This document shows positions 6,434 through 43,113 of a stretch of DNA of 64,000 nt, piece by piece. The first letter of the stretch is position 1. Every line of letters begins with the position of its first letter. Both the position numbers and the translations under genes were made by a program. The notes under the pieces are model-generated. The model was not told where the DNA came from, did not search any database, and was given only the letters and a program-made list of their open reading frames with translations. Origin of the DNA: Pseudomonas fluorescens (GTDB taxonomy: Bacteria; Pseudomonadota; Gammaproteobacteria; Pseudomonadales; Pseudomonadaceae); NCBI RefSeq assembly GCF_019212185.1, contig NZ_CP078138.1:6177501-6241500 (forward strand), in the 5' to 3' direction.

Positions 6434-6491
6434 TTCCGCACAGTCGTCAGATTGGTAGCACACTAGAACACCGCAAAACCGGAGCCCCTGC

Positions 6492-8692: not shown

Positions 8693-8713
8693 CTATCCCC
8701 CCTGGGGGGATAG
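8693..8713 (+). promoter_or_regulatory. G-tract palindrome, likely RcnR-type operator
   Basis: A perfect 21-bp inverted repeat: arm CTATCCCCCC, a central T, and the complementary arm GGGGGGATAG. RcnR/FrmR/CsoR-family repressors recognise G/C tracts flanked by short AT inverted repeats. It lies 38 bases before the ATG of the adjacent RcnR-like gene, so autorepression of the metal-efflux operon is likely. Confidence 0.75.
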
Positions 8714-8751
8714 GATGCCGGCGTAATTCATTGAGGCCCGAGGCTCAAGCC

Positions 8752-9051
8752 ATGAGTGAGCAAGAACACCAACATAGCCATCCGCACACCCACCAAAGTC
8801 ACGAGGCGATCATCAAGCGCCTCAAGCGGGCTGATGGCCATTTGCGCGGCATCATCACCATGATCGAAGAGGGTCGTGAATGCGTGGACATTGCTCAGCA
8901 GTTGCACGCTGTCGAAAAAGCGGTCTGCCAGGCGAAGCGCACGCTCATCCAGGATCACATCGATCACTGCCTTGAGGACACCGTTTCGGCGTTAGGTAAT
9001 GGCGAGCGCGCACCGCTGGAAGCGTTCAAACAAATCACCAAGTACCTCTAG
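8752..9051 (+). CDS. RcnR/DmeR-like metal-sensing repressor (CsoR/FrmR family)
   Basis: A 99-aa all-helical repressor of the CsoR/RcnR/FrmR superfamily. The N-terminus is His-rich (HQHSHPHTHQSHE). The family core has RLKRADGHLRGIITMIEEGREC, with the metal-ligand Cys, and then the LHAVEKAV and DHIDHCLED segments that give His ligands. The ATG at 8752 is preferred; a TTG seven codons earlier is the alternative. Seven bases separate it from the NicO-type exporter, and the G-tract palindrome precedes it. By analogy it would release DNA on binding Ni, Co or a related metal. Confidence 0.88.
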   Translation: MSEQEHQHSHPHTHQSHEAIIKRLKRADGHLRGIITMIEEGRECVDIAQQLHAVEKAVCQAKRTLIQDHIDHCLEDTVSALGNGERAPLEAFKQITKYL

Positions 9052-9058
9052 GTCTGAA

Positions 9059-10195: not shown

Positions 10196-10207
10196 GGCGA
10201 TGTTTGA

Positions 10208-10645
10208 GTGTTCGAACTCACCAGCTACGTTGGTCTTTTTCTGGCGGCATTCGGTGCCGCTACGTTATTGCCAATGCAATCTGAAGCCGTGCTAGTCGCG
10301 ATGTTGCTCTCAGACCGGTACATCGCTTCGACGTTATTGACGGTCGCCACCTTCGGCAACGTTCTCGGTTCTACGCTGAATTGGGTGTTGGGTCGCTCCA
10401 TTGAGCGATTGCACCACAAGCGCTGGTTTCCGGTGAGCGAGAGCAAGCTCGAAAAGGCCGAGCAATTCTACTTGCGCTATGGGCGCTGGTCGTTATTGCT
10501 GAGCTGGGTGCCCATCATTGGCGATCCATTAACGGTCGTTGCTGGAGTGATGCGCGAGCCTATCTGGAGCTTCCTGCTGATAGTTACCCTGGCCAAGGGC
10601 ATTCGTTATCTCGTGCTGACCGCTGTCACCCTGGGTTGGGCTTGA
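10208..10645 (+). CDS. YqaA-family small membrane protein (DedA-like)
   Basis: A 145-aa membrane protein starting at GTG 10208. It has the SNARE-associated/DedA pattern of YqaA proteins: an N-terminal FAAFGAATLLPMQSEA-like segment, GNVLGSTLNWVLGR, then FYLRYGRWSLLLSWVPIIGDPLTVVAGVMR. It follows the metal exporter by 12 bases and is likely in the same operon. YqaA-like genes recur next to metal exporters in Pseudomonas islands, but the function is unknown. Confidence 0.85.
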   Translation: MFELTSYVGLFLAAFGAATLLPMQSEAVLVAMLLSDRYIASTLLTVATFGNVLGSTLNWVLGRSIERLHHKRWFPVSESKLEKAEQFYLRYGRWSLLLSWVPIIGDPLTVVAGVMREPIWSFLLIVTLAKGIRYLVLTAVTLGWA

Positions 10646-10649
10646 TGAT

Positions 10650-10976
10650 GGCTTATACGACCAACATATCTCGCTCAAGAGCCGAAGCAGCAGCCTGGAT
10701 CTGATCAAGTGGCTGGCGATGCTGACCATGGGTATCGACCATCTGCAGTAGGTAAAGCCGGAGATGGGCTATCTGTCCGTTCGGGGACGACTCTCTTTTC
10801 CGCTCTTCTGTAGCGCCATCGCGGCCAACGTATTGCGCTCCAAATCGCGCGAACTGCTGACGCCTGCTAATAGTCGTTGCCTCGCCTTGATGCCGTTGTT
10901 CGCCGCCATTTCAGAAGCGCCTTACCGCTATATCAGCACTTCCTCAGGGAGAATAAGGAACTCGCTTGCCCAATGA
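10650..10976 (+). pseudogene. TraX-family pseudogene (in-frame stop, truncated)
   Basis: The frame reads SLDLIKWLAMLTMGIDHLQ, then a TAG at 10749, then continues in the same frame as GYLSVRGRLSFPLFCSAIAANVLR and LMPLFAAISEAPYRY before ending at 10976. This is the N-terminal part of a TraX-family acyltransferase-like membrane protein (normally about 240 aa), known from F-plasmid pilin acetylation and common on Pseudomonas islands. The internal stop and the missing C-terminal half mark it as dead. It supports past plasmid or ICE ancestry for the island. Confidence 0.75.
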
Positions 10977-11049
10977 AGGCAATTAGCCATACGCTGCGAT
11001 GCGTGAGAGGTCTCACAAGTATAAAAAAATTAGCATGGAGCAAGCCCTG

Positions 11050-11181
11050 ATGAAACTGTCTGCCCTTTTGATCGCCGCTTTACTTTCGATTACATCCGTT
11101 GCTGCCTTCGCGCACAGCGGCGGTACTGATTCAAAAGGTTGCCATCGCAACCATAAAACGAACGACTACCACTGCCACTAA
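11050..11181 (+). CDS. Small YHYH-type exported protein
   Basis: A 43-aa protein with a signal peptide (MKLSALLIAALLSITSVAA, cleaved near FA|HSGG). The short Cys/His tail has SKGCHRN and NDYHCH and matches the C-terminal Cys/His motif of YHYH-domain proteins. Such short versions occur alone or fused to nuclease-like domains. Function unknown; the motif could bind a metal, which would fit the surrounding cargo. A hairpin follows the stop. Confidence 0.7.
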   Translation: MKLSALLIAALLSITSVAAFAHSGGTDSKGCHRNHKTNDYHCH

Positions 11182-11189
11182 ACGGCAAA

Positions 11190-11210
11190 AGCCCAGCTTG
11201 ATGCTGGGCT
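11190..11210 (+). terminator. Hairpin after the YHYH gene
   Basis: An eight-base stem AGCCCAGC / GCTGGGCT with loop TTGAT begins nine bases after the stop. The T run on the plus strand is poor, but AAAA precedes it, so it may act in either direction or only as an mRNA 3' end. Confidence 0.5.
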
Positions 11211-11371
11211 TGATGCAGCTGGCTTCTTCAGATTTGTGGAGGCCAGTTAGGCACCATCGAGCAAAACCGTAAAGGACAGCTAATGGCTGGGTCATAGCCC
11301 CAATACCTGCCCAATCTCGGGCACTCAGCACTATATGTGAGGGAGATCACTCCACTTTTGGGGAATTCTCC

Positions 11372-11482
11372 GTGAGGCAATATGAATCTACCGTCCTGAA
11401 GTGGCCATTCCATCGCCCACTCGTGGTGACCCTACCTACTGGCTTGGTAATTGCTCTCACGCTTGTACTCAATATTCGTTGA
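11372..11482 (+). CDS. Candidate 36-aa single-helix membrane protein
   Basis: A GTG start preceded by GGGGAA opens a 36-codon frame ending in TGA. The peptide has KWPFHRPL followed by a hydrophobic helix (VVTLPTGLVIALTLVLNIR). Three bases later a similar small frame begins. No family recognised. The main support is that both frames show the same K-x-x-RPL plus helix layout, so they may be duplicated small membrane proteins. Confidence 0.35.
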   Translation: MRQYESTVLKWPFHRPLVVTLPTGLVIALTLVLNIR

Positions 11483-11484
11483 GC

Positions 11485-11610
11485 ATGCGAAAACCGGAGG
11501 TTAGGGCCTTGTGGAAACGTCCTCTGCTTATCGGAGTTTTGCTTGGAATCGGAATCCTTACACTCGGTTTGGCAGTGAGTATCATCCTTATGCAATGGCA
11601 GCTGAGATAA
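11485..11610 (+). CDS. Candidate 41-aa single-helix membrane protein
   Basis: An ATG start (or a TTG at residue 9, which has a GGAGG site upstream) gives a short basic N-terminus, LWKRPLLIGV, and a hydrophobic helix ending ILMQWQLR. It follows the 36-codon frame almost directly and has the same basic-RPL-helix pattern. The product is unrecognised. It could also be the remnant of a longer membrane protein. Confidence 0.4.
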   Translation: MRKPEVRALWKRPLLIGVLLGIGILTLGLAVSIILMQWQLR

Positions 11611-11839
11611 CCTAGCCAAGCAGTTGCGTAGGCGAAATGATGCGTCTCGGCTGGATTGGCTTGAGTGATGCCTTGATCGTTTTTTAACCACTTGCAGATC
11701 TAGAAACTGCGTGTCAGAAACTTTATTTCGCGTCGGTAATGTTGGCTTAACTTAGGATTTGTTTTATCGCCTTTGGCAGGCCTATTGGGTCGACCGCTTC
11801 CATTTGTAAGAGCCATTTGCAGCGACTAGACTCCAGACC

Positions 11840-12181
11840 ATGAAACGCTATCTGCGGTTTTGCATCATCTTCATGATCAGCTTGGCGCTTCCCCTCAGCG
11901 GGATGGCGGGCGTTCAGGCACCGACAGAACCGTGCCCAATGAAGACGATGGGCATGGCGATGATGGACGATATGGGGATGGACTGCTGCAACGATATGAA
12001 AGGCCCTTCCGATCACGGCAAACCTTGTAAGCCGGGCCAGGAATGCAAGTCGGGCGGCATGCTGCAAGTCTCGATCTTAAAGCCTCCTGTAACCGTATTC
12101 AGCCCCGAAGTGATTTCATTCTTCAGCGATTCCTTGCCTGTAAAGACCTCGTCCTGGGTTTGGCGACCCCCTCGCGTTTGA
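11840..12181 (+). CDS. Small exported Met/Cys-rich protein upstream of cus genes
   Basis: A 113-aa protein with a signal peptide (residues 1-25, cleaved near GMAG). The mature N-terminal half is rich in Met, Cys and Asp (PCPMKTMGMAMMDDMGMDCC, then KPCKPGQECKSGGM). The second half is neutral and lacks Cys (LKPPVTVFSPEVISFF). I do not recognise a named domain, but proteins like this commonly precede czc/cus-type RND genes in Pseudomonas. Likely periplasmic and metal binding. The same stretch is open on the other strand, but signal peptide and context favour this one. Confidence 0.6.
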   Translation: MKRYLRFCIIFMISLALPLSGMAGVQAPTEPCPMKTMGMAMMDDMGMDCCNDMKGPSDHGKPCKPGQECKSGGMLQVSILKPPVTVFSPEVISFFSDSLPVKTSSWVWRPPRV

Positions 12182-12202
12182 TTCCTGTACCACACTGAGC
12201 CT

Positions 12203-12222
12203 CATTCCGCTTTAGCGGAATG
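12203..12222 (+). terminator. Short hairpin between the Met/Cys-rich gene and cusC
   Basis: Perfect eight-base stem CATTCCGC / GCGGAATG with loop TTTA, about 20 bases after the previous stop. No T run, so a 3'-end or mRNA-stability element is as likely as a true terminator. Confidence 0.4.
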
Positions 12223-12280
12223 GCATATCTGCGTGCATGTCTTATGAAGCGCGCAGTGGATCATCACAGGAATCGTGAAC

Positions 12281-13537
12281 ATGAACCCCAAGTGCTATTG
12301 CACAGGTTGGCCCCTCGTGGCCGGTTTGGCGGCAAGCGTACTGGCATTGCCGAGCTTCGCTGCCGCATTGACACTCGATGAAGCGTTGCGGCTGGCCGAA
12401 AACAATGCGCCGTCGCTGACCGCACAAGACGCGAAAATTCAGGCTGCCAGCAGTGCAGCCATCCCCGCTGGTGAATTACCCGATCCCAAGTTATTGGTGG
12501 GTGTGCAGAACTACCCCATTGGCGGCCCGGATCGATGGAGCATCGACCGGGACTTCATGACCATGCAAATGGTCGGGGTCAGACAAGAGATGCCCAACAG
12601 CGACAAGCGCAAAGCACGCATTGAGGTCGCCGATGCGGCCATTGATCGAGCTGCGGCAGAGCGTGGAGTCGAGCGCCTGAAGGTACGCCAGTCCACGGCG
12701 TTGGCCTGGATCAGCAGCTACTCGGTTGAGCGCAAAGATGCGCTGTTCCAGGACTTCTACAAAGAGAACCGCCTGCTGACCGATACCGTCCGGGCCCAGA
12801 TTGCCGGTGGCCGCGCTCAACCCGCCGATGCGGTGACACCCAAGCAAGAAGCGGCTCAACTGGAGGAGCAACAGGACGATCTGGTTCGCCAGCGCGTGCA
12901 GGCCCGAGCGGCCCTCAAACGCTGGATAGGCTCCGCCGCCAACGACAAGCCTGTGGGCAGCTTGCCTCAATGGCCTGTCGATCCATCAAGCTACGCCCAT
13001 AAACTGCAACACCATCCCGAGTTGGCAGCGTTTGCACCGATGACCCGTGAAGCGCAAGCCAAGGTTCGTGAAGCCGTGTCGGAGAAGCAGTCGGACTGGA
13101 GCTGGGAACTGGATTACCAGCGCCGTGGCCGTGAGTTTGGCGACATGGTAAGTGTGCAATTTTCCTGGGATCTACCGCTGTTTCCTGACTCTCGGCAAAA
13201 TCCCAAAATCGCAGCCAAACAGGCTGAACTCAGTCAGCTTGAGGCTGAGCGCGATGCTCTGTCACGCGAGCACACTCAGCAACTGGAAAACGAACTGGCT
13301 GACTATGAGCGCTTGAATCGTGCGGTAAGTCGCAACCAGGAAAGCCTGTTGCCGCTGGCCAGGGAAAAGGTCGAACTCAGCATGGCCAGCTACCGTGTCG
13401 GCAAAGGTGATTTAAACGCCGTTATTGCCGCCCGACGTGAACTCATCGAAGCCCGCCTCAAACAGATCGACGTGGAGGAGCAACGAGCGCTGACCAGTGC
13501 GCGTCTGTATTTTGCTTATTGGGAGGCCAGTCAATGA
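12281..13537 (+). CDS. cusC: Outer-membrane channel of Cu/Ag RND efflux (CusC-like)
   Basis: A 418-aa TolC-family outer-membrane efflux protein. It has an N-terminal signal peptide, then LTLDEALRLAENN, and long heptad-rich helices (DAVTPKQEAAQLEEQQDDLVRQR region; SQLEAERDALSREHTQQLENEL region) typical of OEP domains. The ATG at 12281 has AGGA at good spacing; a GTG two codons earlier is possible. The stop overlaps the cusB start (ATGA). It forms the outer-membrane exit of a tripartite metal pump. The symbol is assigned by partnership with the Cu/Ag-type CusA; CzcC-like naming is equally used. Confidence 0.88.
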   Translation: MNPKCYCTGWPLVAGLAASVLALPSFAAALTLDEALRLAENNAPSLTAQDAKIQAASSAAIPAGELPDPKLLVGVQNYPIGGPDRWSIDRDFMTMQMVGVRQEMPNSDKRKARIEVADAAIDRAAAERGVERLKVRQSTALAWISSYSVERKDALFQDFYKENRLLTDTVRAQIAGGRAQPADAVTPKQEAAQLEEQQDDLVRQRVQARAALKRWIGSAANDKPVGSLPQWPVDPSSYAHKLQHHPELAAFAPMTREAQAKVREAVSEKQSDWSWELDYQRRGREFGDMVSVQFSWDLPLFPDSRQNPKIAAKQAELSQLEAERDALSREHTQQLENELADYERLNRAVSRNQESLLPLAREKVELSMASYRVGKGDLNAVIAARRELIEARLKQIDVEEQRALTSARLYFAYWEASQ

Positions 13538-15015
13538 ACCTTAAATGGAATGGGGCATTGCTGGTTGGCATCTCGCTGGCATTCGGTATTGCCGGAGGTT
13601 ACTGGTTCGCTCAACAGCGCATGAATGGGGTATCCAGTTCTGCCCAGGAGCAGAGCCACGATTCACCTGACGAACGCAAGGCTCTGTATTGGTATGACCC
13701 CATGTACCCGCAGCAAAAGTTCGATAAGCCGGGTAAGTCCCCCTTCATGGACATGCAACTTATTCCTAAGTACGCCGGTGGCGCAGGGGATCGTGCGACT
13801 GTCAGTATCGATCCGAGTCTTACCCAGAATCTCGGTCTGCGTTTTGCAACTGTCACCCGTGGGATCTTTGATTCCAGTCTCGACGTCACAGGAGTCTTGG
13901 GATTCAACGAGCGCGATGTCGCGGTGATTCAGGCCCGCACCACTGGCTTTGTGGAGAGGGTCTATGCCCACGCTCCCGGCGATGTACTCAAAGCCAACGC
14001 GGCGTTGGCGGATATCCTGGTGCCCGAGTGGACATCCGCCCAGACAGAGTTCCTTGCGCTGAAGCGCAATGGGGATGCTGACCTGTTGGCTGCGGCCCGC
14101 CAGCGATTGCGGCTCACAGGGATGCCGGCAACACTGATTACTCAGGTAGAGCGTGGCGGTAAGGTTCAGCCTTACCTGACGCTCACCAGCCCTATTGGTG
14201 GTGTGCTGCAAGAATTGAATGTTCGTGCGGGCATGACCGTGGCGACTGGCGACACTCTGGCACGCGTCAATGGCTTGAGCAGTGTCTGGCTAGCCGTGGC
14301 CGTTCCAGAATCGGATTCCGGAGCTATCGCCGTGGGGCAGGCGGTCGAAGCGCGTCTGCCAGCCTTCCCAGGAATAACACTCAGTGGCAAGGTCGGCGCG
14401 ATTTTGCCCGAGACAAATCCGGACAGTCGCACCCTTCGGGTACGTGTGGAGTTACCCAATCCGGACGGGCGCCTCAGACCGGGTTTGACGGCGCAGGTAC
14501 GCCTGAATCGTTCGACCGAGCAAAGTGTATTGTGGGTGCCGAGTGAGGCGGTGATTCGAACTGGCCGACGAGCCCTGGTGATGCTCGCCGAAGACGCTGG
14601 TCGCTACCGTCCCGTGGAGGTACACCTCGGGCAGGAAAGCGATGGCAAAACGGCGATATTGAAGGGTCTGGAAGAAGGCCAGAAGGTGGTTACCTCTGGT
14701 CAGTTCCTGCTCGACTCGGAGGCCAGTCTTAAGGGCATTGTTGCAAGCTCGGAGGAACAGTCACCACCCAGCGCAGCAGCCTCCAGCTTTCATGAAGCGG
14801 ATGGGCAGATCGTTGAGATCAACGATAAAGAAGTCACGCTTGCCCACGGCCCCTTCAAGACACTCGGCATGCCTGGCATGACGATGACGTTTCCACTCGC
14901 CAATCCGTCGCTGATGCAGGGTCTCAAAGCGGGTGACAAGGTTCGTATCGCGGTGAGCCAGTCCGATGATGGTTTGCGTGTTGAGCGCCTGGATAAATCG
15001 GGGAGCCAGCCATGA
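13534..15015 (+). CDS. cusB: Periplasmic adaptor CusB with HMBD and fused CusF domain
   Basis: A 493-aa membrane-fusion protein. After an N-terminal membrane anchor comes a heavy-metal-binding domain ([20 protein letters not shown], near residues 50-70). Barrel-sandwich, hairpin and beta-barrel parts follow ([36 protein letters not shown]). The last 80 residues are a CusF-like domain ([18 protein letters not shown], then [10 protein letters not shown]), so a metal chaperone fold is fused to the adaptor. It overlaps cusC and cusA by four bases on each side. It links pump and channel and likely delivers Cu(I) or Ag(I). Confidence 0.9.
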
Positions 15016-18000
15016 TTGCTGCCCTCATTCGTTGGTCAGTGGCCAACCGATTCCTGGTGCTACTGGCGACGCTGTTTGTCACGGCTTGGGGCATTTGGTC
15101 GGTACAGAGCACGCCCATCGATGCACTGCCGGATCTCTCCGATGTTCAGGTGATCATCCGCACCCCTTATCCGGGGCAAGCGCCGCAGATTGTCGAGAAC
15201 CAGGTGACCTATCCGTTGGCCACCACCATGCTCTCGGTGCCGGGCGCTAAGACGGTACGCGGTTATTCCTTCTTCGGAGATAGCTTCGTGTACGTGTTGT
15301 TCGAAGACGGCACTGACTTGTATTGGGCTCGCTCGCGGGTGTTGGAGTACCTGAGTCAGATACAAAGCCGCTTGCCGGCCAGCGCCAAGCCGGCGTTGGG
15401 GCCGGATGCGACGGGGGTGGGTTGGATCTATCAGTACGCACTGGTGGATCGCAGTGGCGGGCACGATTTGGCACAGCTCCGCGCTCTTCAGGACTGGTTC
15501 CTCAAGTTTGAACTCAAGACCCTGCCGAACGTTGCGGAAGTGGCCACCGTGGGTGGCATGGTTAAGCAGTACCAAGTGCAGCTCGATCCGCTGAAATTGG
15601 CCAGCCTCGGTATCACTCAGGCTGAGGTGACCGACGCCATCGGTAAGGCCAATCAGGAAACCGGTGGTGCCGTGCTGGAGATGGCAGAGACCGAGTTCAT
15701 CGTGCGCGCTTCGGGCTATCTGAAGACGCTCAATGACTTCCGGGCGATCCCGCTTAAGTTGGGTGCGGGTGGTGTGCCGGTAACCCTTGGCGATGTCGCC
15801 ACGATTCAATTGGGGCCGGAAATGCGGCGGGGCATTACAGAACTCGACGGCGAAGGCGAGACCGTCGGCGGTGTGGTGATTTTGCGCAGCGGCAAGAATG
15901 CTCGCGAGACCATTGCGGCGGTCAAGACCAAACTCGACGAACTGAAAAGCAGTCTGCCGACCGGGGTGGAAATCGTCACCACCTACGACCGCAGCAAGCT
16001 GATTGACCGCGCTGTTGAAAACCTCAGCCACAAGCTGATCGAAGAGTTCATCGTCGTCGCGTTGGTCTGTGGAATCTTTCTCTGGCACTTGCGCTCATCG
16101 CTGGTGGCGATTATCTCGCTGCCAGTTGGGGTGCTGATTGCCTTCATCGTCATGCGCTACCAAGGGATCAATGCCAACATCATGTCCTTGGGCGGGATTG
16201 CCATCGCCATCGGCGCGATGGTCGATGCCGCCGTGGTGATGATCGAGAACGCCCACAAGAAGGTTGAGGCCTGGCACGCGGCCAATCCTGGGGAGGAACT
16301 GAAGGGTGAGCGTCATTGGCACGTGATGACCGAAGCAGCGGCAGAGGTAGGCCCGGCACTGTTCTTCTGTTTATTGATCATCACCCTCTCGTTCATTCCG
16401 GTTTTTACCCTGGAAGCGCAGGAAGGGCGATTGTTCGGCCCATTAGCTTTCACCAAGACCTACGCCATGGCCGCAGCGGCAGGATTGTCAGTGACCTTGG
16501 TGCCAGTGCTGATGGGCTATTGGATTCGGGGTCGAATCCCCACTGAGCAACATAACCCGCTAAACCGTTGGCTGATCCGGATCTACCAGCCAGCTCTGGA
16601 CGCGGTCTTGCGTCGACCAAAGATCACGCTGCTTGTCGCGTTGCTGGTCTTTGTCAGCGCGCTATGGCCAATGTCGCGCTTGGGCGGCGAGTTTCTCCCC
16701 CCGTTGGACGAGGGCGATCTGCTCTATATGCCTTCAGCCCTGCCGGGATTGTCGGCGCAGAAAGCGGCGCAATTGCTGCAACAAACAGACCGCCTGATCA
16801 AGACTGTTCCAGAGGTCGAACATGTCTTCGGTAAAGCTGGACGTGCTGAAACTGCAACCGACCCGGCGCCGCTGGAAATGTTTGAAACCACGATCCAGTT
16901 CAAACCACAGGAGCAATGGCGCCCAGGCATGACACAGGAAAAATTAGTGGAGGAACTGGATCGAGTGGTACGAGTCCCTGGCCTTACGAATATATGGATA
17001 CCACCGATTCGCAACCGTATCGATATGTTGGCTACGGGCATCAAAAGCCCTATTGGAGTAAAGGTCGCCGGCACCAATTTGACGGAAATTGATGCCGTCA
17101 CCCAAGCGGTCGAGCGGGTGGCCAAAGACGTGCCCGGTGTCAGTTCGGCTCTTGCCGAGCGACTGACTGGTGGCCGCTACATTGACGTGGATATCGACCG
17201 AAAGGCTGCCGCTCGCTATGGATTGAACATCTCTGATGTGCAGTCCATCATGGCCGGCGCTATCGGCGGTGAAAACGTCGGGGAGACCATTGAAGGTCTC
17301 GCACGCTTTCCGATTAACGTGCGTTACCCACGTGAGTGGCGTGACTCGGTCGGCAGCCTGGAGCGATTACCGATTTACACTCCGTTAGGCAGCCAGATCA
17401 CCCTCGGCACTGTGGCGAAGGTCAAGGTCAGCGACGGGCCGCCAATGCTCAAGAGCGAGAACGCACGGCCTTCAGGCTGGGTGTATATCGATGTGCGTGG
17501 TCGGGACATTGCTTCTGTGGTCGCCGATCTACGCCAGGTCGTCAATGAGCAGGTCAAGTTGCAGCCCGGCATGAGCCTGAGTTACTCAGGGCAGTTCGAA
17601 TTTCTGGAACGGGCTAACGCACGCCTCAAACTGGTGGTGCCTGCCACGCTGTTGATCATCTTCGTGCTGCTCTACCTGACTTTTGCCCGATTCGATGAGG
17701 CGTTGTTGATCATGGCCACGTTGCCATTCGCACTGACTGGCGGGGCATGGTTCCTCTATCTGTTGGGGTTCAACCTGTCGGTAGCCACCGGAGTCGGCTT
17801 TATCGCACTGGCCGGTGTTTCTGCCGAATTTGGCGTGATCATGCTGCTCTACCTGAAGAACGCCTGGGCCGAGCGTGAAGACCTCGGCGACAACACTGAG
17901 CGTGGGCTGGTTGCGGCCATTCGCGAAGGCGCTGTGCAGCGCGTTCGACCCAAGGCCATGACCGTTGCCGTGATCATTGCCGGCCTTTTACCCATTTTGT

Positions 18001-18170
18001 TGGGCAGCGGTACTGGTAGCGAAGTGATGAGCCGCATCGCCGCGCCTATGGTCGGCGGCATGATCACGGCCCCATTGCTTTCCCTGTTTGTCATTCCGGC
18101 AGCCTATCGCCTGATGCGTCGCCGGCACCTCATAGTTGAACCCATCAACCCTCAAGGAAAAGTCGTATGA
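15012..18170 (+). CDS. cusA: Cu(I)/Ag(I) RND efflux pump CusA
   Basis: A 1052-aa heavy-metal RND pump with 12 membrane helices and two large periplasmic loops. The segments that carry the three-Met site of CusA are present: [19 protein letters not shown] and [26 protein letters not shown] also matches CusA more than CzcA. The proton relay region reads [16 protein letters not shown]. Length fits. It overlaps cusB and the downstream cusF by four bases. It would pump Cu(I)/Ag(I) from the periplasm or cytoplasm through CusC. Confidence 0.93.
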
Positions 18171-34404: not shown

Positions 34405-35238
34405 TCAGACTGATACAGGTGCAGAGATATGCGGGTGCGGATCGTAGCCCACCACTTCAAAATCTTCGAACTTGTAGTCGTAGATGGATGCAGGCTTACG
34501 AAGCAGCTTCAGTTCAGGCAACTGGCGTGGCTCGCGAGCAATCTGAGTCTTCACCTGCTCCATGTGATTCGCGTAGATGTGGACGTCACTGAGCGAGATA
34601 ACGATCTCACCAACGTCGAGATCACACTGCTGGGCGAGCATGTGCGTCAGGCATGCCAGGGATGCCGTGTTGTACGGGAGCCCCAAGAAGCTATCTGACG
34701 AACGAATAAACAGGTGCGAGGACAGCTTGTTATTCACGACATAGAACTGATAAAGCAGGTGGCACGGCGGCAGCGCCATCTTGCCTTGGCGGGCATTTTC
34801 CTGAGGGCTTACCTTCTCGTCCGGCAGGTACTCCACGTTCCAGCCATGGAACAGAATTCGCCGGCTATTTGGATTGGTCTTCAGGGCGTTAACGACGTAG
34901 TCAATCTGGTTGATTGTGCCGCCATCTTTGGTTGGCCAGGCAGTCCACTGCTTACCGTACACAGGCCCAAGGTCACCTTCTTCGGTGGCCCACTCGTTCC
35001 AAATCTTAACGCCATTCTCATTGAGCCATTTAACGTTAGTATCGCCGCCAAGAAACCAAATAAGCTCATTAACAATACTTTTAAAGTGCAACTTCTTCGT
35101 TGTAAGCAAAGGAAAGCCTTTCGACAGGTCGTGTCGATACTGCCTCCCAAAGACACTAATAGTACCGGTGCCGGTTCGGTCACCTTTGACCGCACCATTC
35201 TCAAGAACATCAGTCAGTAAGTCCAGATAGCTTTTCAT
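34405..35238 (-). CDS. thyA: Complete thymidylate synthase carried by the island
   Basis: A 277-aa ThyA of the short E. coli/phage type. It makes dTMP from dUMP using methylene-tetrahydrofolate. Active-site features are complete: [11 protein letters not shown], the catalytic Cys 159 in [10 protein letters not shown], the dUMP-binding [12 protein letters not shown], and the C-terminal [11 protein letters not shown] and [10 protein letters not shown]. It overlaps the stop of the 170-aa mobility gene (ATGA), so it belongs to the recombinase operon. The resident copy at 41534 is longer in type, clearly different in sequence and broken; this copy probably restores function. Confidence 0.95.
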
Positions 35239-35747
35239 GCAATTTTCTCCGCCTGGGCTGCTTCCAGGATACTGATCACTTGCTTGAGTTTATCAATTTC
35301 TTTTTGAGAGTCCAAGAGCCGCTTGTTGGCATCAGCCAAAAGGCTTTTATAGGTATCTCTTGAACCAATCATATCTTGATACTTCTGCTCATTAGTCTGA
35401 GCAGCATCGTCAGCTATTTTAGCCTCCGTAAACCAGTGAAGAACCTCGACCCTAGCAGCTTCCAACTTATCAGTAAGCACTACAAGAGGATCAACTGGCT
35501 TCTTGTTTGAGACCTTCTTGCGCAAAAATTCGATTCGACGATTCTCCTTGATAATTTCAAGGCGCTCCAAAGGCCAAACACGCATGCGGATAGTATTGCG
35601 ATGCATACCAGTCATACGGCTAAGCTCAGCAACAGTCGCCTTCATAGAGTCGTCCGCTGCGATATTAAGAAGCGCTTCGGCCAACAACTCTGTGTACTGA
35701 TCAAAATCTTCTTTATTCTTCTGATCGAATGCCCGTGGATCAGACAT
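35235..35747 (-). CDS. HTH plus coiled-coil accessory protein of the mobility module
   Basis: A 170-aa protein. The N-terminal half has an HTH ([20 protein letters not shown]); the C-terminal half is a long coiled coil (about 95-165) ending [20 protein letters not shown]. The ATG follows the 697-aa gene stop by one base, with GAGGAG upstream, and its own stop overlaps thyA. Position and build recall TnpC of Tn554 and GmtX of Gamma-Mobile-Trio islands (from memory). It probably helps the recombinases bind DNA or choose orientation. Confidence 0.7.
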
Positions 35748-35748
35748 C

Positions 35749-37842
35749 TCAGAGCTCCTCTTCCAGCAACTGAAGGACGCCATAAGCTTCCTCCATCGCG
35801 GCTTTGTTCTGCGCATGTGTGTGTGCATACGCTGGATTGCCGAGCATCGCCTTGTTCTGGTAATAAACGTCTCGCCAAGCCGGCGCGTTGGCCTTGCTGA
35901 CGATGGCATTCTGGCAACGGTTAGGGTTACAACGAAGCCCGCCAATGCAAGGTAGGGAACTGTCGAACTCATCCGCGCCGCCACCATAACAGAAGCCAGA
36001 GCCCACGTTGATAACCGCAATGTGCTGGTCGAGCATAGCCTCAAAAATATCGTCCTTGGTGTGCCCAGAGGCCATGTAACCTCGGAAAACCTTCCTGAGG
36101 CTTTCCCTATGGGCCTCAGCATTCACGCCTGCGTAGCTGCCGTCAGGGTCGAAGCGCTGTTGAATGCTTTCAATTTCCGCATCCTGACGAAGCGACCTAC
36201 CTTTCGTCTTCCGGGCACCACCACCCTTGGATATTCGGTCGGCAATCTCGCCATAGAGCAGGGTGGTCTTACTAAACCCGCGATCTGAATGCCCCACACC
36301 TACGATCTCACCGAAGTGCTTAAGCTGGTGAGAGATAAACGGCAGACCCAAGTCGGCACGATAAAGCTGATAAGCCAAGGTATGGCGCATCATGTAGGCG
36401 TTGAAGTCAAGCTCCTCAAAAGTCTCCGGCGGCAAGATACGCTCGAAAAATTTTTCCAGTGTGAGCTTGGTTGCGCCGGCAGAAAATGGCTTCCCTTGCT
36501 CCCCAAAAGCGACCGTATCCACATTCGAAAAGATATAGTCGTTGTTCTTGTATTTACTGATTAACTGACACACCCGAACAGCATCACGAACAATGGGGAT
36601 GGCGAGCCAAAAATCATCAAACAACTCAACAAGATTGTCCTGGTGCTTGCTCACATTGCTTGCCAACACCCAGTAGCGGCCATCAGGGCGAAGGCTAGAA
36701 CTAGCGAGCAGCTCTGCATATTCAGACGGACGCATCCCTGTGTACTGGCCAATAATGTAGAGGCACGAATAGTTGACGAAATTCATATACAACCTGAATT
36801 CATCATTAAATGGCGAGCCGGTGATTTTTGCATATTGCCTAACCGCATAGTTAGCATTCATCGAGAACAGGTTGCTTGAACCCATGACATCACTGTCCAA
36901 TAACCTAGAGGCTTCCTCCTTCGAGAAGCCCTTATTCACCAGCCGATTATAGACATACAGGTTAAATTTCAGCGGGTTCAACCCATTCATTTGCGCAGGA
37001 AAATAATCTTTTGCGTTGCGGCGTTTGAGGCTGGCAGTATCAATTACGTTCTCACCCATAGCATCCAAAAAGTCGACAATGGATAGCGAGGCCATTTGAG
37101 ATGAAATTTCGAAGACGGTGTTTGGTAATACTTGGGACTTTTTTTCAGCATCCTTTGCAGGGCGATGTTTACCACCAAGGACTTTCCACTTTAACTTGGT
37201 AAAGTCCACGAGTGGTAGGTTTGCACCGAACACGTTCGCTTGCAGATAGCCTGACTTTAGTAGCTTGAAAAGCTTTTCAGTGTTCCCATCGTATACATAA
37301 TCAAAATCCTCCGCAGCTGCTGCATAAAAATGCGCAGATAAACATTGAATTGAGATCAGCTCACGATCAACGTGCTCTTTTCCAAGTTCAATAGCAGCGA
37401 CGGAATAAACCTTATCCAAAAACCGAAGCCCGCACTCATAGTCAGTGATCAACGAATTGGGCTTTGGCGGTTTCTTGTTTGCACTGACGGATTGACCCTC
37501 CGCTGGAACTCCACTCAGCGCCTTGAGAATGATCATGAACGCAGCTTTAAGCTCAAGGATCGCCAACTCTGGAATGTTGGGGTACTTCGTAAAATCAATC
37601 CGAAGCTTGGATCCACGAATATAACGGGATGCATTTGGGTAATCCGCATTGAAGTCCCAGACCCCGTCCAGGAATTCAGAGAGTTCAGATACCTGCAAGG
37701 CATTGAGATAGGCCAGAAAAGCCAAGGCTTCCTGCTGCTCGCTCTCTTCTTCAGAAGCAATAGCCGCTCCCTGTAGCAAAGACAAGCTAAAGCGAAACTT
37801 CGAAAACGTTAACAGGGTGGAGAAATTCGTTTGTTCCATCAT
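35749..37842 (-). CDS. Large recombinase-like protein, third of the trio
   Basis: A 697-aa protein starting at an ATG within the stop of the upstream gene (TGATG); a GTG one codon earlier is possible. The last third has tyrosine-recombinase marks: the first Arg in GQYTGMRPSEYAELL, MMRHTLAYQLY for the H/R box, and LKHFGE followed by TTLLYGE for the final His and Tyr. The C-terminus carries a Cys cluster (FCYGGG, LPCIGGLRCNPNRCQN), likely zinc binding. The N-terminal 300 residues are unrecognised. It may act with the other two recombinases in integration and excision. Confidence 0.75.
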   Translation of the reverse strand: MMEQTNFSTLLTFSKFRFSLSLLQGAAIASEEESEQQEALAFLAYLNALQVSELSEFLDGVWDFNADYPNASRYIRGSKLRIDFTKYPNIPELAILELKAAFMIILKALSGVPAEGQSVSANKKPPKPNSLITDYECGLRFLDKVYSVAAIELGKEHVDRELISIQCLSAHFYAAAAEDFDYVYDGNTEKLFKLLKSGYLQANVFGANLPLVDFTKLKWKVLGGKHRPAKDAEKKSQVLPNTVFEISSQMASLSIVDFLDAMGENVIDTASLKRRNAKDYFPAQMNGLNPLKFNLYVYNRLVNKGFSKEEASRLLDSDVMGSSNLFSMNANYAVRQYAKITGSPFNDEFRLYMNFVNYSCLYIIGQYTGMRPSEYAELLASSSLRPDGRYWVLASNVSKHQDNLVELFDDFWLAIPIVRDAVRVCQLISKYKNNDYIFSNVDTVAFGEQGKPFSAGATKLTLEKFFERILPPETFEELDFNAYMMRHTLAYQLYRADLGLPFISHQLKHFGEIVGVGHSDRGFSKTTLLYGEIADRISKGGGARKTKGRSLRQDAEIESIQQRFDPDGSYAGVNAEAHRESLRKVFRGYMASGHTKDDIFEAMLDQHIAVINVGSGFCYGGGADEFDSSLPCIGGLRCNPNRCQNAIVSKANAPAWRDVYYQNKAMLGNPAYAHTHAQNKAAMEEAYGVLQLLEEEL

Positions 37843-40217
37843 CACATCCCCACCCCATCAACCAGCACAGTTGTATCTACAAACTCGGAAAGACGACGGC
37901 CTTCGGCCAATTCCTTAGGAGTAAAATCAGAGTTTGAGTTGAGGATGCCATCCAACAGAGCCAAGTTTTCGCGCACTACGCGGCCATAGGGTGTGTCCAT
38001 GATCCGAGATACCTCCATAAGCTTAAGGTAGTCCCGCTCCATCGCGAACAGCTCCGGCAAACTAGACGCAGTGAGCAAAACGTTCTCACATCCTAGGCAC
38101 ATGTTGTACAGCGCACATGGGCTACCAGGTACATAGGTACTCAGTTTTTTGATGAACTCTGGCGGGTTGAAAATATTACGACAGCTCGCCAGCGGCGTTT
38201 TGAAAACTACCTGAGGCCCATCGAGATTCACGACGTCGATCAGGTTGGCCTCAGCATCCTTGTTCGGGCCCTGATCAAACGCCTCGGCTGCCGACTCATG
38301 GAGTTCCCTGAGCGCCACATCCAGTTTGGAGCGTGCGATGTGGTTGAAGTCCATACGATCCAGGTAGGCTAGGGTAGTCTCGATATGTTTGTGGCCCAAA
38401 ATCAGCTGGATCTCGCGGACGGGTACGTCCCGCTCCACCAGTTCGCTGATGAAGCTAGGGCGCAGCCGGGAAGGCGAAAGGCTCAACGGCTGACCAGAGC
38501 TGTCCAGTAGGGCTTTACGCTTAGAATATGCTGCGAAGACTACCCCCAAGGCCCCGTCCTTCGCAGTTGCAAAAGATTTGATCTCAAGAAAGCTGATCCG
38601 CGCACTGGACTGCCAGATGAATAGCTTGTCGCGCACGGCCTCGGGAGCAGACTCGCGCAGCGAAGCTGTCAGTGCTTTAACGTCTTCAAACACTTTGGCA
38701 ACAGCCCTGGATTGAGCAGTGGTAAGCCAGGTGATATCAGCCTCAAAAATATCAAGGTGCATCACCTTTCCACCCTCGGAGCGCTCTTTCCAGTACCTCA
38801 GGCAGGGGCGACCGGTAAGCGGGTGCCTAGGCTCATAATCATCCACATCAAGAAGCTTGATTGAGTCAGCGTTCAACCCGGTGACTTGGGCGAGCTTAAT
38901 GGCATACGGAGCAATAACGGTCGAATCGATTCGGTAGTGAGCACCCCAACCTTCCACCACCTCCCGCAGGCTGACGCCAGAACGCTTAACGAGTCGAAGA
39001 AAACCTAAAACATAAGGATCGTCACTATCCTTCTGATCGTAGCCAGCATGAGAACAGCTCAGCTTGTTCTCAAAAATCCAACGAGCACTGTCGAGGGTGT
39101 TGAGGCCTGGCTTCAAGCGCCCATCCTTGCAGAGAGGATCCTCACCAATGCCGCTCTTCTGATACGGCTGAGAAAGGGTGTTGTAGTGCAGGATATCCTC
39201 TTCAACGCTCTCAGAAATACGAACACGCTCGGCGCTCGAATAGGGACGGTACTGATCAGTGACGCGGTCAGCATCGAATCCTTGGCAGTTGATGAAATCT
39301 GATCCCGTGTAACCTTTGATGTTTTTAATGGTCGTCAAGGTGATCCGGGCGGCGCTAATCAAGGTATTGGCGGAGACTGGAGAAAGGTCACCCGCAACAA
39401 TCTGCCGCTCAAGGTACGAGCGAAACAGAGGGAGGATAAATGGATCAAGAAACTCAGTCAGCGGCTCCATTCCCCTGAAGCCACGCCCAACAAGGAGCTT
39501 GGTGAACCATCTAAACCCCTCATGGTAATTGCTAGCTCCTGAGTCGCTGGTAGTCCCCAGAGAAGCGGTCGCAAACGCATGTTTCAGATCGTTGAATGGC
39601 CTATCTTCAGAAGATTTCTCGAGGTCGTCCAAGGTAGCGAAATCAAGCATTTTGAGGCGTTTGAAATCCACAAGAGCACTCTCCTGCGGCACAAACTCTT
39701 CCTTGGACTCAATTCGTTCCTTAACGGTCATGTAATCCGTTGAGGCCACGCCCAGGAATTGAAGATCCAGATTGATTTCATCGTACGCAAGACGGACGCC
39801 TTCATACTGACTGAAGCCATGCTTGATCGACTCAAGCCCCACAATCGGCTCAACAGCCTTTGTGAGACTAAGTTTGTTGCCGTAAATGGGCAACTCGAGC
39901 TTTTCTTCTTGGGAAAGAGACTTGTACCAGCCCAACAACTTCAAACGCCAGTTGCAGCCAGCAGCGGTTTCTCCCTGGTGAATAACACCATCAATGAGCA
40001 TGTTAAGGATGAGTTTCTGCTCTGCAAGCTCGAACATCTCGATTGATGGATCGAGATCCTTACTAGCAATATAGGACTCACTCAGCATGAGTGGAGCGTA
40101 CTTCCCACTGGAATCGTCGGCGAGCTCGACTTGGTAGTAATTGAGCGGATTTTCTTCCAGCTCTCTAAGCCACCTGATGATCTTGCCACTTTCAACTGCA
40201 CGTACTGAAATATTCAT
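37842..40217 (-). CDS. Large tyrosine-recombinase-family protein, second of the trio
   Basis: A 791-aa protein with its ATG overlapping the upstream stop (ATGA). The C-terminal catalytic region (about 460-660) has SPSRLRPSFISELV and LGHKHIETTLAYLDRMD, with the final Tyr. The usual first Arg (G-L-R) reads GLNADS, so one catalytic residue may be lost or moved. A Cys cluster (PCALYNMCLGCENVL) follows near residue 710. Size and layout recall Tn554 TnpB and GmtZ-type integrases; memory based. The N-terminal region is unrecognised. Confidence 0.75.
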   Translation of the reverse strand: MNISVRAVESGKIIRWLRELEENPLNYYQVELADDSSGKYAPLMLSESYIASKDLDPSIEMFELAEQKLILNMLIDGVIHQGETAAGCNWRLKLLGWYKSLSQEEKLELPIYGNKLSLTKAVEPIVGLESIKHGFSQYEGVRLAYDEINLDLQFLGVASTDYMTVKERIESKEEFVPQESALVDFKRLKMLDFATLDDLEKSSEDRPFNDLKHAFATASLGTTSDSGASNYHEGFRWFTKLLVGRGFRGMEPLTEFLDPFILPLFRSYLERQIVAGDLSPVSANTLISAARITLTTIKNIKGYTGSDFINCQGFDADRVTDQYRPYSSAERVRISESVEEDILHYNTLSQPYQKSGIGEDPLCKDGRLKPGLNTLDSARWIFENKLSCSHAGYDQKDSDDPYVLGFLRLVKRSGVSLREVVEGWGAHYRIDSTVIAPYAIKLAQVTGLNADSIKLLDVDDYEPRHPLTGRPCLRYWKERSEGGKVMHLDIFEADITWLTTAQSRAVAKVFEDVKALTASLRESAPEAVRDKLFIWQSSARISFLEIKSFATAKDGALGVVFAAYSKRKALLDSSGQPLSLSPSRLRPSFISELVERDVPVREIQLILGHKHIETTLAYLDRMDFNHIARSKLDVALRELHESAAEAFDQGPNKDAEANLIDVVNLDGPQVVFKTPLASCRNIFNPPEFIKKLSTYVPGSPCALYNMCLGCENVLLTASSLPELFAMERDYLKLMEVSRIMDTPYGRVVRENLALLDGILNSNSDFTPKELAEGRRLSEFVDTTVLVDGVGM

Positions 40218-41446
40218 TTCTTATCTCCCAACCTGATCTTCAATGTCGTCTGCGCAGCAAGATCCGCCATGCTTTTTGCCTTGGTCGAAACTTCTCCCGT
40301 GTTCGGGCAAACCAGATGAAAAATATCCTGTGGCAACCTGGTATAAATCCCTGTCGTGGATGCGTCTTCGTGGCCGAGGGATTTCTGCGCCATTAGAAGT
40401 TTGTCGAGGTAGTTATCGCCAAAGTCTGGGCTAGTCAAAATCGCATACGCATGGCCATGACGAAGCTTATGTGGCGAGACCATACGCTCAAGTCGCTTGC
40501 TCTTAACGGCACGCTTAGAAAGTCGCTCAAGCAGTTTGCTAATAGCGTCAGGATTGAAAGGTCGTCCCTCTGAATTGAAGAAGCAGGGAGTTACATCCGC
40601 ACTTTCGTAACGGCGAGCGTGCTTCTTGAATAAAGGAGAAGCGTGGTAACGCTTAATACGCTCGAGCACAGCTCGACTCACGATTGAGTATCGCGGTTTG
40701 AACTCCTTACCACGCCCCTTGCTTCCATCAATATACAGCGGGCAATAATCAGGATGCACCCAATCAAGTGCGTCATCTGGAACAAAGTTAGCTTGAGCGA
40801 ACCCCAAAGCCTTATTCACGGCCCCTAGGGTGACCCTACCAACTTCACTTCGACGCAAGCCCACATCAAAGATAGTTTGGATTAGGCAACGCTCCCTCTC
40901 GCTACTGGCATACTCAATAAGCGCTTTGAGCTCCCGCATGGAACAGGGATATACCAAATCTTTCTTCGGAGGCGGCGAAAGAAATCCACCGGCATAAGGA
41001 TTGTCCTCCCGCACAGCAGATCGTTGTTTACCTGCAACACACAAGAAATCGTTGAACAGGGCCATATAACAAGCATCCCTGTTACGGATAGTAGTTGAGG
41101 TCAAACTATCAACTTCGCGCAAGTGGGAATAGTAGCGCTGAATGTTGTGCTTACTTACGGCAAGAAGTATTTCGTCATAGGACGAGCTTTTGAAAGTAGG
41201 CGTGCCTTTCATGTGCTCGAGAAGGTAACCAATGTTACGCCCGTACGTCTCGGCGGACAGGGCCGCTAGGTTGGCACTGCGTACTGCGTAGGTCAGGTAC
41301 TCGCTTACAAGCGGGACTAACCTCTCTTCTGAATCGAACAGCCCCACCGCAGTCACAGACACCTGGTCTGCCACTGTAGGCCCATCCTCGTTGAGCATCG
41401 ACCCACCCAGGTCGAGCAACTGCTTCTCTTTGACTACAACCTTCAC
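40214..41446 (-). CDS. Tyrosine recombinase, first gene of the mobility operon
   Basis: A 410-aa integrase with a complete catalytic set: Arg in IFDVGLRRSEVGRVTLG, SPHKLRHGHAYAIL for H-x-x-R, and LGHEDASTTGIYTRLP for the last His and the nucleophile Tyr. The N-terminal core-binding part (about 50-160) contains YLTYAVRSANLAALSAETYG. It starts at a GTG with AGGGG upstream, about 135 bases from the island-thyA junction. Position and size recall Tn554 TnpA or GmtY. It is the likely strand-exchange enzyme for insertion into thyA. Confidence 0.88.
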   Translation of the reverse strand: MKVVVKEKQLLDLGGSMLNEDGPTVADQVSVTAVGLFDSEERLVPLVSEYLTYAVRSANLAALSAETYGRNIGYLLEHMKGTPTFKSSSYDEILLAVSKHNIQRYYSHLREVDSLTSTTIRNRDACYMALFNDFLCVAGKQRSAVREDNPYAGGFLSPPPKKDLVYPCSMRELKALIEYASSERERCLIQTIFDVGLRRSEVGRVTLGAVNKALGFAQANFVPDDALDWVHPDYCPLYIDGSKGRGKEFKPRYSIVSRAVLERIKRYHASPLFKKHARRYESADVTPCFFNSEGRPFNPDAISKLLERLSKRAVKSKRLERMVSPHKLRHGHAYAILTSPDFGDNYLDKLLMAQKSLGHEDASTTGIYTRLPQDIFHLVCPNTGEVSTKAKSMADLAAQTTLKIRLGDKK

Positions 41447-41580
41447 CGACTACCCCTTTTTGAAGGCCGCCCATCCTATGCAGAATGTGCAGCTTGTCAA
41501 GGTCAAGATGAAGTCGCATGAAAGACAAATTTTTTAGGCTAGGAACACGTACTGTGCGCTTTTTCCTACGTCCGATAAAA
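41447..41580. mobile_element. Right terminus of the island and operon leader
   Basis: The 134 bases between the recombinase GTG and the thyA junction. They must hold the operon promoter and the recombinase binding sites. The last bases on the island side (TTTTCCTACGTCCGATAAAA) abut GGCCCAGGTC of thyA. CGTA and TACG half-elements lie on either side of CTGTGCGCTTTTTCC, a possible but weak inverted pair. No attachment repeat can be confirmed without the left end. Confidence 0.6.
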
Positions 41581-42238
41581 GGCCCAGGTCGTTGGAGCGA
41601 ATGTAGAGCGTCAGGGAAATCTCTTTGGTCTCGACGTTCGGGTGGAATTGGTACAGCAGGTGGCACGGCGGCAGGGCCATTTCATCGAGTTGGGCGACGT
41701 TCCAGCCGTGGAACAGGATGCGCCGGCTACCCGGGTCCTTGATGATGGTGTCGAGGCATTGGCGGATCTGATCGATGGCCTTGTACAACACCACGTAGGC
41801 CTGGCCGTCTTCCTCGCCTTCGGCAATCTGCCGGTAGCCCTGGTTGAGGGTCTGCTCGATGGCCGCCGGGTTGCTCAGCGGGATCTGCTTGTAGGCCGGC
41901 CACTTGCGCCATTGCACGCCGTAGATTTCGCCCAGGTCGTCTTCACCCTGGCGGAACGGGTTGGCCAGCCATTGCGCGTTTTCGTTGGCGTTCTGGTCCC
42001 AGACTTTGCAGCCCAGGGCGCGGAATTCGGCGGCGTTGTTGACGCCACGGAGGAAACCGCACATCTCGCCGATGGCCGATTTGAAGGCCATCTTGCGCGT
42101 GGTGATGGCCGGAAAACCATCCTGCAGGTCATAACGCAGCATCGCGCCGGGAAAGCTGATGGTGTTCACACCGGTGCGGTTGGCTTGCTTGGTGCCGTTC
42201 TTGATGACGTGGGCGACCAGATCGAGATATTGCTTCAT
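41534..42238 (-). pseudogene. thyA: Resident thyA truncated by island insertion
   Basis: The frame of 234 codons has about 219 native residues of the long-type Pseudomonas ThyA ([20 protein letters not shown] at the start; Cys 192 in [10 protein letters not shown]). After [10 protein letters not shown] it changes to a 15-residue tail encoded by island DNA and stops at 41534. The missing C-terminal quarter holds residues needed for dUMP and folate binding (the P-x-N, DxHxYxNH and terminal segments). The product is almost certainly inactive. It follows lgt, as in other pseudomonads. Confidence 0.92.
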
Positions 42239-42297: not shown

Positions 42298-43113
42298 TCA
42301 GGCAGCCGGGGTAACCGGCGCCGCCGGGGCGCGATGATAAGCCAGCCAGATCAGGAACAGCCCGCCGACGATCATCGGCACGCACAGCACTTGGCCCATG
42401 GTCAGCCAGTTCCAGGCCAGGTAGCCCAGTTGCGCGTCCGGCACGCGAACGAATTCGACGATAAAGCGGAAGATCCCGTAGAACAGCGCGAACATCCCGG
42501 ACACCGCCATGGTCGGCCGCGGCTTGCGCGAGAACAACCAGAGGATGACGAACAGCGCCACGCCTTCGAGGGCAAACTGGTACAGCTGTGAGGGGTGACG
42601 CGGCAATTGCGCCGGGTCGCTGAACGCCGGGAAGACCATGGCCCACGGCACGTCGGTGGCCTTGCCCCACAATTCGGCGTTGATGAAGTTGCCGATACGC
42701 CCGGCGCCCAGGCCAATCGGCACCATCGGTGCGACGAAGTCCATCAGTTGGAAGAATGACTTGCCGTTCTTCTTGCCGAACCACAACGCCGCCAGCATCA
42801 CCCCGATGAAGCCGCCGTGGAACGACATGCCACCCTTCCACACCTCGAAAATCAGCGTCGGGTTGGCCAGGTAGGCGCTCAGGTCGTAGAACAGCACATA
42901 GCCCAGGCGGCCACCGACAATCACCCCCATGGACATCCAGAACACCATGTCGGAGAGCTTCTCTTTGGTCCAGGTCGGATCAAAGCGGTTCAACCTGCGC
43001 GACGCCAACAGCCAGGCTCCGCCAATGCCAACCAGGTACATCAGGCCGTACCAATGGATTTTCAGCGGGCCAATGGCCAGGGCCACCGGGTCAATCTGCG
43101 GGTAAGGCAGCAT
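42298..43113 (-). CDS. lgt: Prolipoprotein diacylglyceryl transferase
   Basis: A 271-aa seven-helix inner-membrane enzyme that attaches diacylglycerol to the lipobox Cys of prelipoproteins. Signatures: [20 protein letters not shown] at the N-terminus, [13 protein letters not shown], the Lgt motif [17 protein letters not shown] and [16 protein letters not shown] has GAGGAG upstream. Length normal. It is upstream of thyA on the same strand, the usual order, and is intact although the island begins 700 bases away. Confidence 0.96.

Follow-up and report, generated by a model that had tools for sequence, protein, structure and literature searches.

The islands of the GInt family, as described by Bardaji et al. 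in 2017 (PMC5385486), carry at one end an operon of three recombinase-like genes and a small protein, bear a large cargo, insert site-specifically, measure tens of kilobases and occur in Pseudomonas. An island with the same traits occupies part of a stretch of 64,000 nucleotides of Pseudomonas fluorescens (the window, positions 6177501 to 6241500 of NZ_CP078138.1, a genome in a single contig of 6.34 Mb). According to the same description, the sites occupied by published GInts are an ABC transporter gene, the ends of ssb and the terminus of a second copy of nrdA, and insertion probably does not fully inactivate the targets. In contrast, the island of the window cuts the thymidylate synthase gene thyA in its middle and brings a replacement. 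Another described element, SE-6283, a strand-biased circularizing integrative element (SE; PMC9345347), resembles this island in that it carries a copy of its target, bcp, and has a 6-bp footprint, but its recombinase module, intA-tfp-intB-srap, is a different one, with a second gene given as non-catalytic. The island studied here is very probably a thyA-specific GInt that rescues the gene interrupted by its insertion.

The resident thyA of this genome, which is of the long type, keeps about 219 codons and then joins island DNA at window positions 41579/41580. Its 5' fragment (41580 to 42238, minus strand) matches residues 1 to 221 of NF010393, a 323-amino-acid (aa) long-type model, and ends in ...RSNDLGL. 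At attL (41569 to 41587, minus strand), thyA ...CTGGGCC(T) is fused to the left end of the element, TTTATCGGACG, the minus strand reading CTGGGCC and then TTTTATCGGACG, and the broken frame is closed by a tail coded by the island (41534 to 41579, minus strand) with its stop at 41534. The 3' fragment of thyA lies outside the window, at genome positions 6149221 to 6149538, on the same strand as the 5' fragment; it begins with GTPFNLTEGAALL... and is open to its natural end. The order lgt-thyA-merR was found in six of six related genomes with an intact long-type thyA, and in the window genome lgt (42298 to 43113, minus strand, PF01790), a host gene upstream of thyA and outside the island, adjoins the 5' piece while a merR-type gene adjoins the 3' piece. 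The island spans genome positions 6149539 to 6219079 (69,541 bp, about 69.5 kb), with ends uncertain by a few bases; window positions 1 to 41579 belong to it, and its far end, at 6149539, lies about 28 kb outside the window. Inverted repeats were sought at the island ends, and nothing useful was found. A PF00303 search of the whole genome gave three thyA matches, only one of them complete, and this was the island copy.

The gin operon is encoded on the minus strand. The gene adjoining attL, ginA (40214 to 41446), encodes a tyrosine recombinase of 410 aa (PF00589, E 4.4e-12); ginB (37842 to 40217) encodes a large tyrosine recombinase of 791 aa (PF00589, E 6.5e-7), and ginC (35749 to 37845) a third, divergent recombinase-like protein of 698 aa (PF00589, E 8.2e-7), with four invariant cysteines near the C terminus in 11 aligned sequences. 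For its part, ginD (35235 to 35747) encodes a small protein of 170 aa, found in the same place in relatives, whose sequence had no match in Pfam or NCBIfam. The fifth gene of the operon, overlapping ginD by ATGA, is the replacement thyA (34405 to 35238), complete, of the short type and 277 aa long (PF00303, 1 to 266). Its product aligns end to end with solved thymidylate synthase chains of the Escherichia coli type (E 1.1e-106) and retains the catalytic residues of these enzymes. The copy is presumably expressed and functional. The identity between island and resident ThyA ranges from 29 to 60%, varying with the piece aligned. A weak promoter-like site, TTGACA-16-TAGGAT, stands before ginA (41473 to 41500, minus strand), one such site being found against 0.5 expected from shuffled sequences. 

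The anatomy agrees closely with a sequence-only reading of the window, which had described a resident thyA of about 219 codons running into island DNA and a complete, dissimilar, short-type thyA of 277 aa overlapping the last mobility gene by ATGA. As it had also anticipated, a thyA 3' fragment stands at the island boundary outside the window and there is no intact resident thyA elsewhere in the 6.34 Mb. It had expected folA-like genes beside the 3' piece, but the neighbors there are a merR-type regulator gene and a gene that, on inspection by eye, encodes a P-type ATPase.

The order and sizes of the gin genes and their Pfam matches, with a ginABCD operon at one end of the island, fit a GInt, an assignment that was made from gene order, sizes and the description in PMC5385486 rather than from comparison with the published gin sequences. 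GInts are further described as requiring all four genes for excision and integration, with a circular form. Two other assignments were rejected. An SE was discarded because the second gene, ginB, has a C-terminal PF00589 match and because ginC, the third recombinase-like gene, is succeeded by the small ginD, unlike the order intA-tfp-intB-srap. The Tn554 family has tnpA-tnpB-tnpC without a third recombinase-like gene, and a Tn554-type element was discarded because the three recombinase-like genes of the island (410, 791 and 698 aa) are unlike tnpABC. An origin of the island thyA as a recent phage gene was also rejected, its best phage relatives being 61% identical.

To place this island among its relatives, GinA relatives (E up to 1e-30) were collected from 398 Pseudomonas genomes, the window genome included. 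They were present in 27 genomes, with 20 insertions in thyA, five in nadE and two in a DUF808 gene. All 20 thyA islands have a thyA 5' piece beside ginA, with the junction at identical thyA codons, in accordance with the high target specificity of GInts; one copy, on a plasmid (see below), lies elsewhere. The junctions have the target codons and a 6-bp footprint in common, and GInts are described as having imperfect direct repeats of at least 10 nt on their flanks. Each of the 20 genomes has exactly one intact thyA, by ginC/ginD, plus a 3' piece. The intact gene follows ginD immediately in 18 stretches, while in G376 and G388, whose contigs end early, it was found on another contig, next to ginC. 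Within Pseudomonas the replacement holds this position even where GinA identity falls from 100% to about 46%. A pattern search placed the beginning of the 3' piece at the matching codon in 18 of the 20 genomes, and the same start was read separately in the remaining two (G078 and G270). Regarding the state of the host pieces, 3' pieces were open to their natural end in 16 genomes and the other four, of the short type (G309, G352, G136 and G302), matched without stops; an apparent break in the 5' piece of G377 corresponds to a stretch of N in the assembled sequence, and those stops that appear within the G142 match belong to element DNA. Thus, the host thyA pieces are not decayed. Two genomes, G292 and G056, each have one extra thyA piece. 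These results support the disruption of thyA together with the carriage of a complete thyA as a repeated trait of the element family, and not an accident of one genome; genomes with a broken thyA beside a recombinase operon and a replacement, of which the sequence-only reading had suggested seeking further examples, make up 20 of the 27 Pseudomonas carriers of GinA, the window genome included. It was also observed that the resident thyA after lgt is of three types in Pseudomonas, of about 264, 277 and 323 aa (L250, L251, L256 and L257 to L262). The L256 type has 75% similarity to the island copy and is possibly a replacement that has become settled.

Similar loci were found in a scan of named genomes. 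From the best 80 of 86 relatives, 63 loci (L113 to L175) with a GinA match at E <1e-25 were used, and 17 weak integrase matches were dropped; some of these loci belong to the same genomes as the Pseudomonas sample, and the two counts are not additive. A thyA 5' piece lies beside ginA in 44 of the loci, whereas seven are in bcp, six in nadE and three in the DUF808 gene. The remaining three are L173 and the pair L161 and L162, which share a genome; in these a replacement thyA follows the gin genes, but ginA has no 5' piece as its direct neighbor. In the L173 genome a 5' piece lies about 18.5 kb further up. The intact thyA was within the fetched locus in 34 of the 44 loci and elsewhere in the genome in nine of the other ten. 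The status of sole copy was established for the 20 Pseudomonas genomes, the 34 named loci being judged within the locus, and one genome, G402 (L167), has a second complete thyA match elsewhere. The arrangement also varied. The replacement thyA is inverted after ginD in the Psychrobacter and Acinetobacter islands and adjoins the 3' piece in G402, G403 and G404, while in the Herbaspirillum locus L169 (G403) thyA is interrupted at a different place. Three betaproteobacterial loci (L166, L168 and L170) show the reverse of the types seen in the window, with a target thyA of the short type and an island copy of the long type. The P. sagittaria genome that holds L161 and L162 (G412) contains two equally scoring island-type thyA genes, a third intact thyA and several pieces.

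To compare the histories of the replacement thyA, the recombinase and the host, Mantel tests were performed on the 19 Pseudomonas and Stutzerimonas loci among 29 with usable GinA, replacement ThyA and lgt, the other ten being outside those genera. Distances between replacement ThyA proteins tracked those between GinA proteins (Spearman rho 0.75, permutation p 2e-4) but not those between the host lgt genes (rho -0.09, p 0.75). The history of ThyA thus follows GinA rather than the host, and therefore the replacement thyA belongs to the element. The element moves horizontally as well: L125 of P. helleri and L158 of S. stutzeri have identical replacement ThyA proteins and GinA proteins that differ by 0.5%, while their lgt differ by 19%. 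Among 72,556 plasmid records searched at E up to 1e-30, one, a 603-kb megaplasmid of P. putida (L337, NZ_CP061724.1), carries ginABCD-thyA with the usual left end, and no thyA-like stretch was found beside these genes, so that thyA travels with the element. This plasmid is a possible vehicle of transfer.

The same pattern was observed on other targets. In all five Pseudomonas genomes with an insertion in nadE, a 5' piece, a 3' piece and an intact nadE, at most about 1.5 kb from the 3' piece, were present. The intact NadE is of the glutamine type, with a GNKSE motif and a length of 565 to 607 aa in the three that were read, and has a carbon-nitrogen hydrolase domain in the one scanned. In G333 the two nadE pieces are about 790 kb apart, which suggests that this genome was rearranged after insertion. 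With respect to bcp, all seven genomes have a 5' piece and an intact second bcp, 83 to 100% identical to the copy of L143, and four also have the 3' piece; the intact copy lies at most 10 kb from the 5' piece in four genomes, 25 to 38 kb away on the same contig in two and on another contig in one, and in four of the seven it is within the fetched locus, by ginD. These bcp islands with gin genes strike the same kind of gene as SE-6283, as judged from the description of the latter. For the DUF808 gene, an intact copy stands by or between the pieces in two of three distinct isolate genomes (G106, which is the same assembly as L164, and G425), and a metagenome-assembled genome (MAG), G423, has the 5' piece only. 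The bcp and DUF808 genes are probably dispensable, and the commoner theme of these islands is that they make good the damage caused where they land.

From these data the following course of events can be proposed. The GinABCD machinery would insert the element, in the same direction as thyA, at the codons of the conserved ThyA active-site motif D-x-x-LG-x-P-F/Y-N. The resident enzyme would thereby be destroyed, and the distinct thyA of the element, which closes the recombinase operon, would keep thymidylate synthesis going. In this way a conserved vital gene would become a safe, ever-present landing site across species. The replacement would be either the other ThyA type or a version changed or recoded at the attachment (att) motif, and it should therefore escape recognition as an att site by the recombinase of its own element and should not readily undergo recombination with the host gene. 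In accordance with this, replacement thyA genes encode LGNPYN or LGWPYN where targets have LG(L/V/T)P(F/Y)N, and in the clade of the window the att codons show only synonymous and flanking changes. Similarly, the replacement has GRENMGVVR or GRESMGVVR in bcp, where the target has GKEYDGIHR, and GNKSEMAV in nadE, where the target has GTDHAAEAV; in DUF808 the codons are synonymous. These differences fit immunity against self-insertion but do not prove it, since the copies are divergent in any case. As a secondary effect, partial deletion of the island may lead to thymidine auxotrophy and so help the island to persist, and its retention may be under selection.

The junction sequences may also keep a record of past movements. 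Left ends have (T/A)TTAT and then ...GCACA in common, while right ends show mostly GTGC, replaced by GGGC in G376 and G377; a 6-bp footprint of variable sequence comes next, before GGC or GGT/GGG. Two islands in long-type hosts, G368 and G311, have the footprint TTCCTG, near the short-type core TTCCTC, and one in a short-type host, G302, has GGGTTC, near the long-type codons. Footprints brought from the donor site are described for SEs (PMC10214605) and for Tn554 relatives (PMC12486829). If the footprints of GInts also come from the donor site, the mismatched ones would show that the element had previously resided in a thyA of the other type, and they suggest jumps between hosts of different types. 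P. helleri L125 shows serial replacement of thyA at one locus, since a long-type stump (195 codons) and a short-type stump precede the current island with a third thyA; L121 has comparable nesting.

Several observations weigh against the proposal of a rescuing GInt. When all 29 loci are taken, GinA correlates with ThyA at 0.82 but also with lgt at 0.60. In P. poae L134 the replacement ThyA is 2 to 4% from those of other clades and GinA is about 53% different; therefore thyA is also swapped between elements. At the att motif, the amino acids of the window clade are ordinary (LGLPYN), and at the one bcp locus measured the att window is 37.5% identical against 61.7% overall, which at the 17th percentile is only mildly low; the dissimilarity at att partly follows from the overall dissimilarity of the copies. 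In addition, the intact bcp may lie outside the island in three of the seven genomes, those in which it is 25 to 38 kb away or on another contig, the DUF808 island of G272 has both pieces and no intact copy was found there, and a genome search of L171, an incomplete MAG, found no intact replacement thyA. The trait is not universal in GInts either, since those in print are described as often lying at gene ends or between genes (PMC5385486). Finally, only compensated insertions in an essential target survive, and therefore a strategy cannot be told apart from survivorship on the evidence of thyA and nadE only; the bcp and DUF808 islands help to do so.

Of the competing explanations, the one that survives best is that proposed by the sequence-only reading, namely, addiction without a toxin, in which the island thyA would have been selected mainly for punishing loss of the island. 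The part of that reading according to which the element disrupts thyA and supplies its own copy is repeated across the family, whereas a costly loss is only a possible purpose of the arrangement. Although the sole intact thyA is the island copy in 20 of 20 genomes, the host 3' pieces are open in 16 and free of stops in the other four, the flaws in G377 and G142 being a run of N and element DNA, so that precise excision should rejoin thyA and clean loss of the island need not hurt. Harm would be expected where the island is partly deleted, or where no empty site remains after excision; in fact, the absence of a detectable empty site after excision is described for SEs (PMC10214605) and some GInts (PMC5385486), and clean restoration may consequently be rare. 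The same arrangement on the bcp and DUF808 genes would, for its part, give little punishment. Addiction as the main function is therefore possible but rather unlikely.

Considerably less probable is survivorship alone, in which a generalist island hit thyA and only the lineages with a chance spare thyA in their cargo are visible. Essential targets would select such survivors, and GInts are described as carrying varied cargo (PMC5385486). However, chance cargo would not be expected to keep its place after ginD across GinA identities of 100% to about 46%, to be co-inherited with ginA, to be carried on a plasmid where no thyA piece adjoins, or to recur as the same pairing on bcp and DUF808. Still more doubtful is that each host supplied the second copy itself, its resident gene having been duplicated or captured. 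Some hosts do have a short-type resident about 75 to 79% like the island copy, but in the window genome the two genes are of different types, and the island copies of the window clade, 94 to 98% identical to that of the window, are found in long-type (L113, L114, L117 and L118) as well as short-type (L115, L116 and L119) hosts. That the two thyA pieces are unrelated debris of assembly or pseudogene decay can be practically dismissed, given a single contig of 6.34 Mb, the same junction codons in 20 of 20 genomes and the host neighbors lgt and merR on opposite sides.

As for the cargo of the island, a gene for an Avs2-type anti-phage protein (1,578 aa, PADLOC Avs2, 2,590 bits) lies just inside the far end (L008, 6630 to 11366, equivalent to genome positions 6149629 to 6154365), and window positions 1401 to 18170 hold copper resistance genes encoding a multicopper oxidase, CopB, CopD, a CusS-like sensor and CusB/AcrB-type efflux proteins.

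Broken-target rescue resembles synthetic home-and-rescue gene drives. On balance, it seems somewhat more probable than otherwise that multi-recombinase islands, GInts and their kin, are natural home-and-rescue elements, in which independent lineages each pair one conserved target (thyA, nadE, bcp or DUF808, with tmk for a sister system) and a substitute that has diverged and lacks the att site, and in which repeated rounds exchange core metabolic genes between bacterial lineages. Rescue of the broken target would explain how large islands land in conserved vital genes without harm to the host and would provide a mechanism by which thyA, nadE and other core genes are replaced horizontally. A core gene annotated as a pseudogene can mark a function that has been replaced.

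Among the matches listed in the open literature, supplements aside, no report was found of a GInt that interrupts thyA or nadE and brings a replacement, and the words "thyA" and "thymidyl" are absent from the main text of PMC5385486. A functional parallel is the tmk island of P. putida KT2440 (PMC10653934), a 65-kb island that likewise cuts a core nucleotide gene and whose deoxynucleoside monophosphate kinase (dNMPK), PP_1964, is described as supplying the lost function by experiment; there, however, the replacement is a different kind of kinase, unlike the ThyA-for-ThyA exchange of the GInts. A PF21448 search for islands of this type in 249 genomes gave matches in 16, and inspection of all 16 stretches revealed 11 that were prophage-like and five with a dNMPK beside a holB-like gene (by eye, only L228 being scanned with Pfam). 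In L226 and L228 the dNMPK and the holB-like gene are followed by four genes unrecognized by the GinC model, two of them with recombinase domains in L228. These islands were rejected as GInts because none of the four genes matched GinC and the single match to GinA was weak, and they are possibly KT2440 tmk-type elements, a second replacement system. In L224, L225 and L227 no recombinase gene was seen in the stretch, and standalone dNMPK copies are likewise described in the KT2440 paper (PMC10653934).

Two further systems invite comparison. The Tn552-II elements of the Tn554 family with tgl (PMC12486829) are, like the island of the window, recombinase elements in a target gene that carry a homolog of that target, and a rescue role of tgl is suggested in the description; unlike it, they are staphylococcal, with a 7-bp site, a yolD-like target and tnpABC genes. 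Tn7360 and Tn7361 of Aeromonas (PMC10229833) are integrated within thyA, as is the island of the window, with 6-bp direct repeats; they are likened here by description and not by sequence, and the passages describing them mention no replacement thyA. Thus, the GInt family is known and the principle of carrying a copy of the target has precedents in SE-6283 with bcp, Tn552-II with tgl and the KT2440 tmk island, whereas the regular use by GInts of a replacement for the broken target on thyA and nadE appears to be new. What is new is that the pairing is regular in GInts and extends to several targets, that the replacement can be of the other ThyA type, and that jumps may have left a record.

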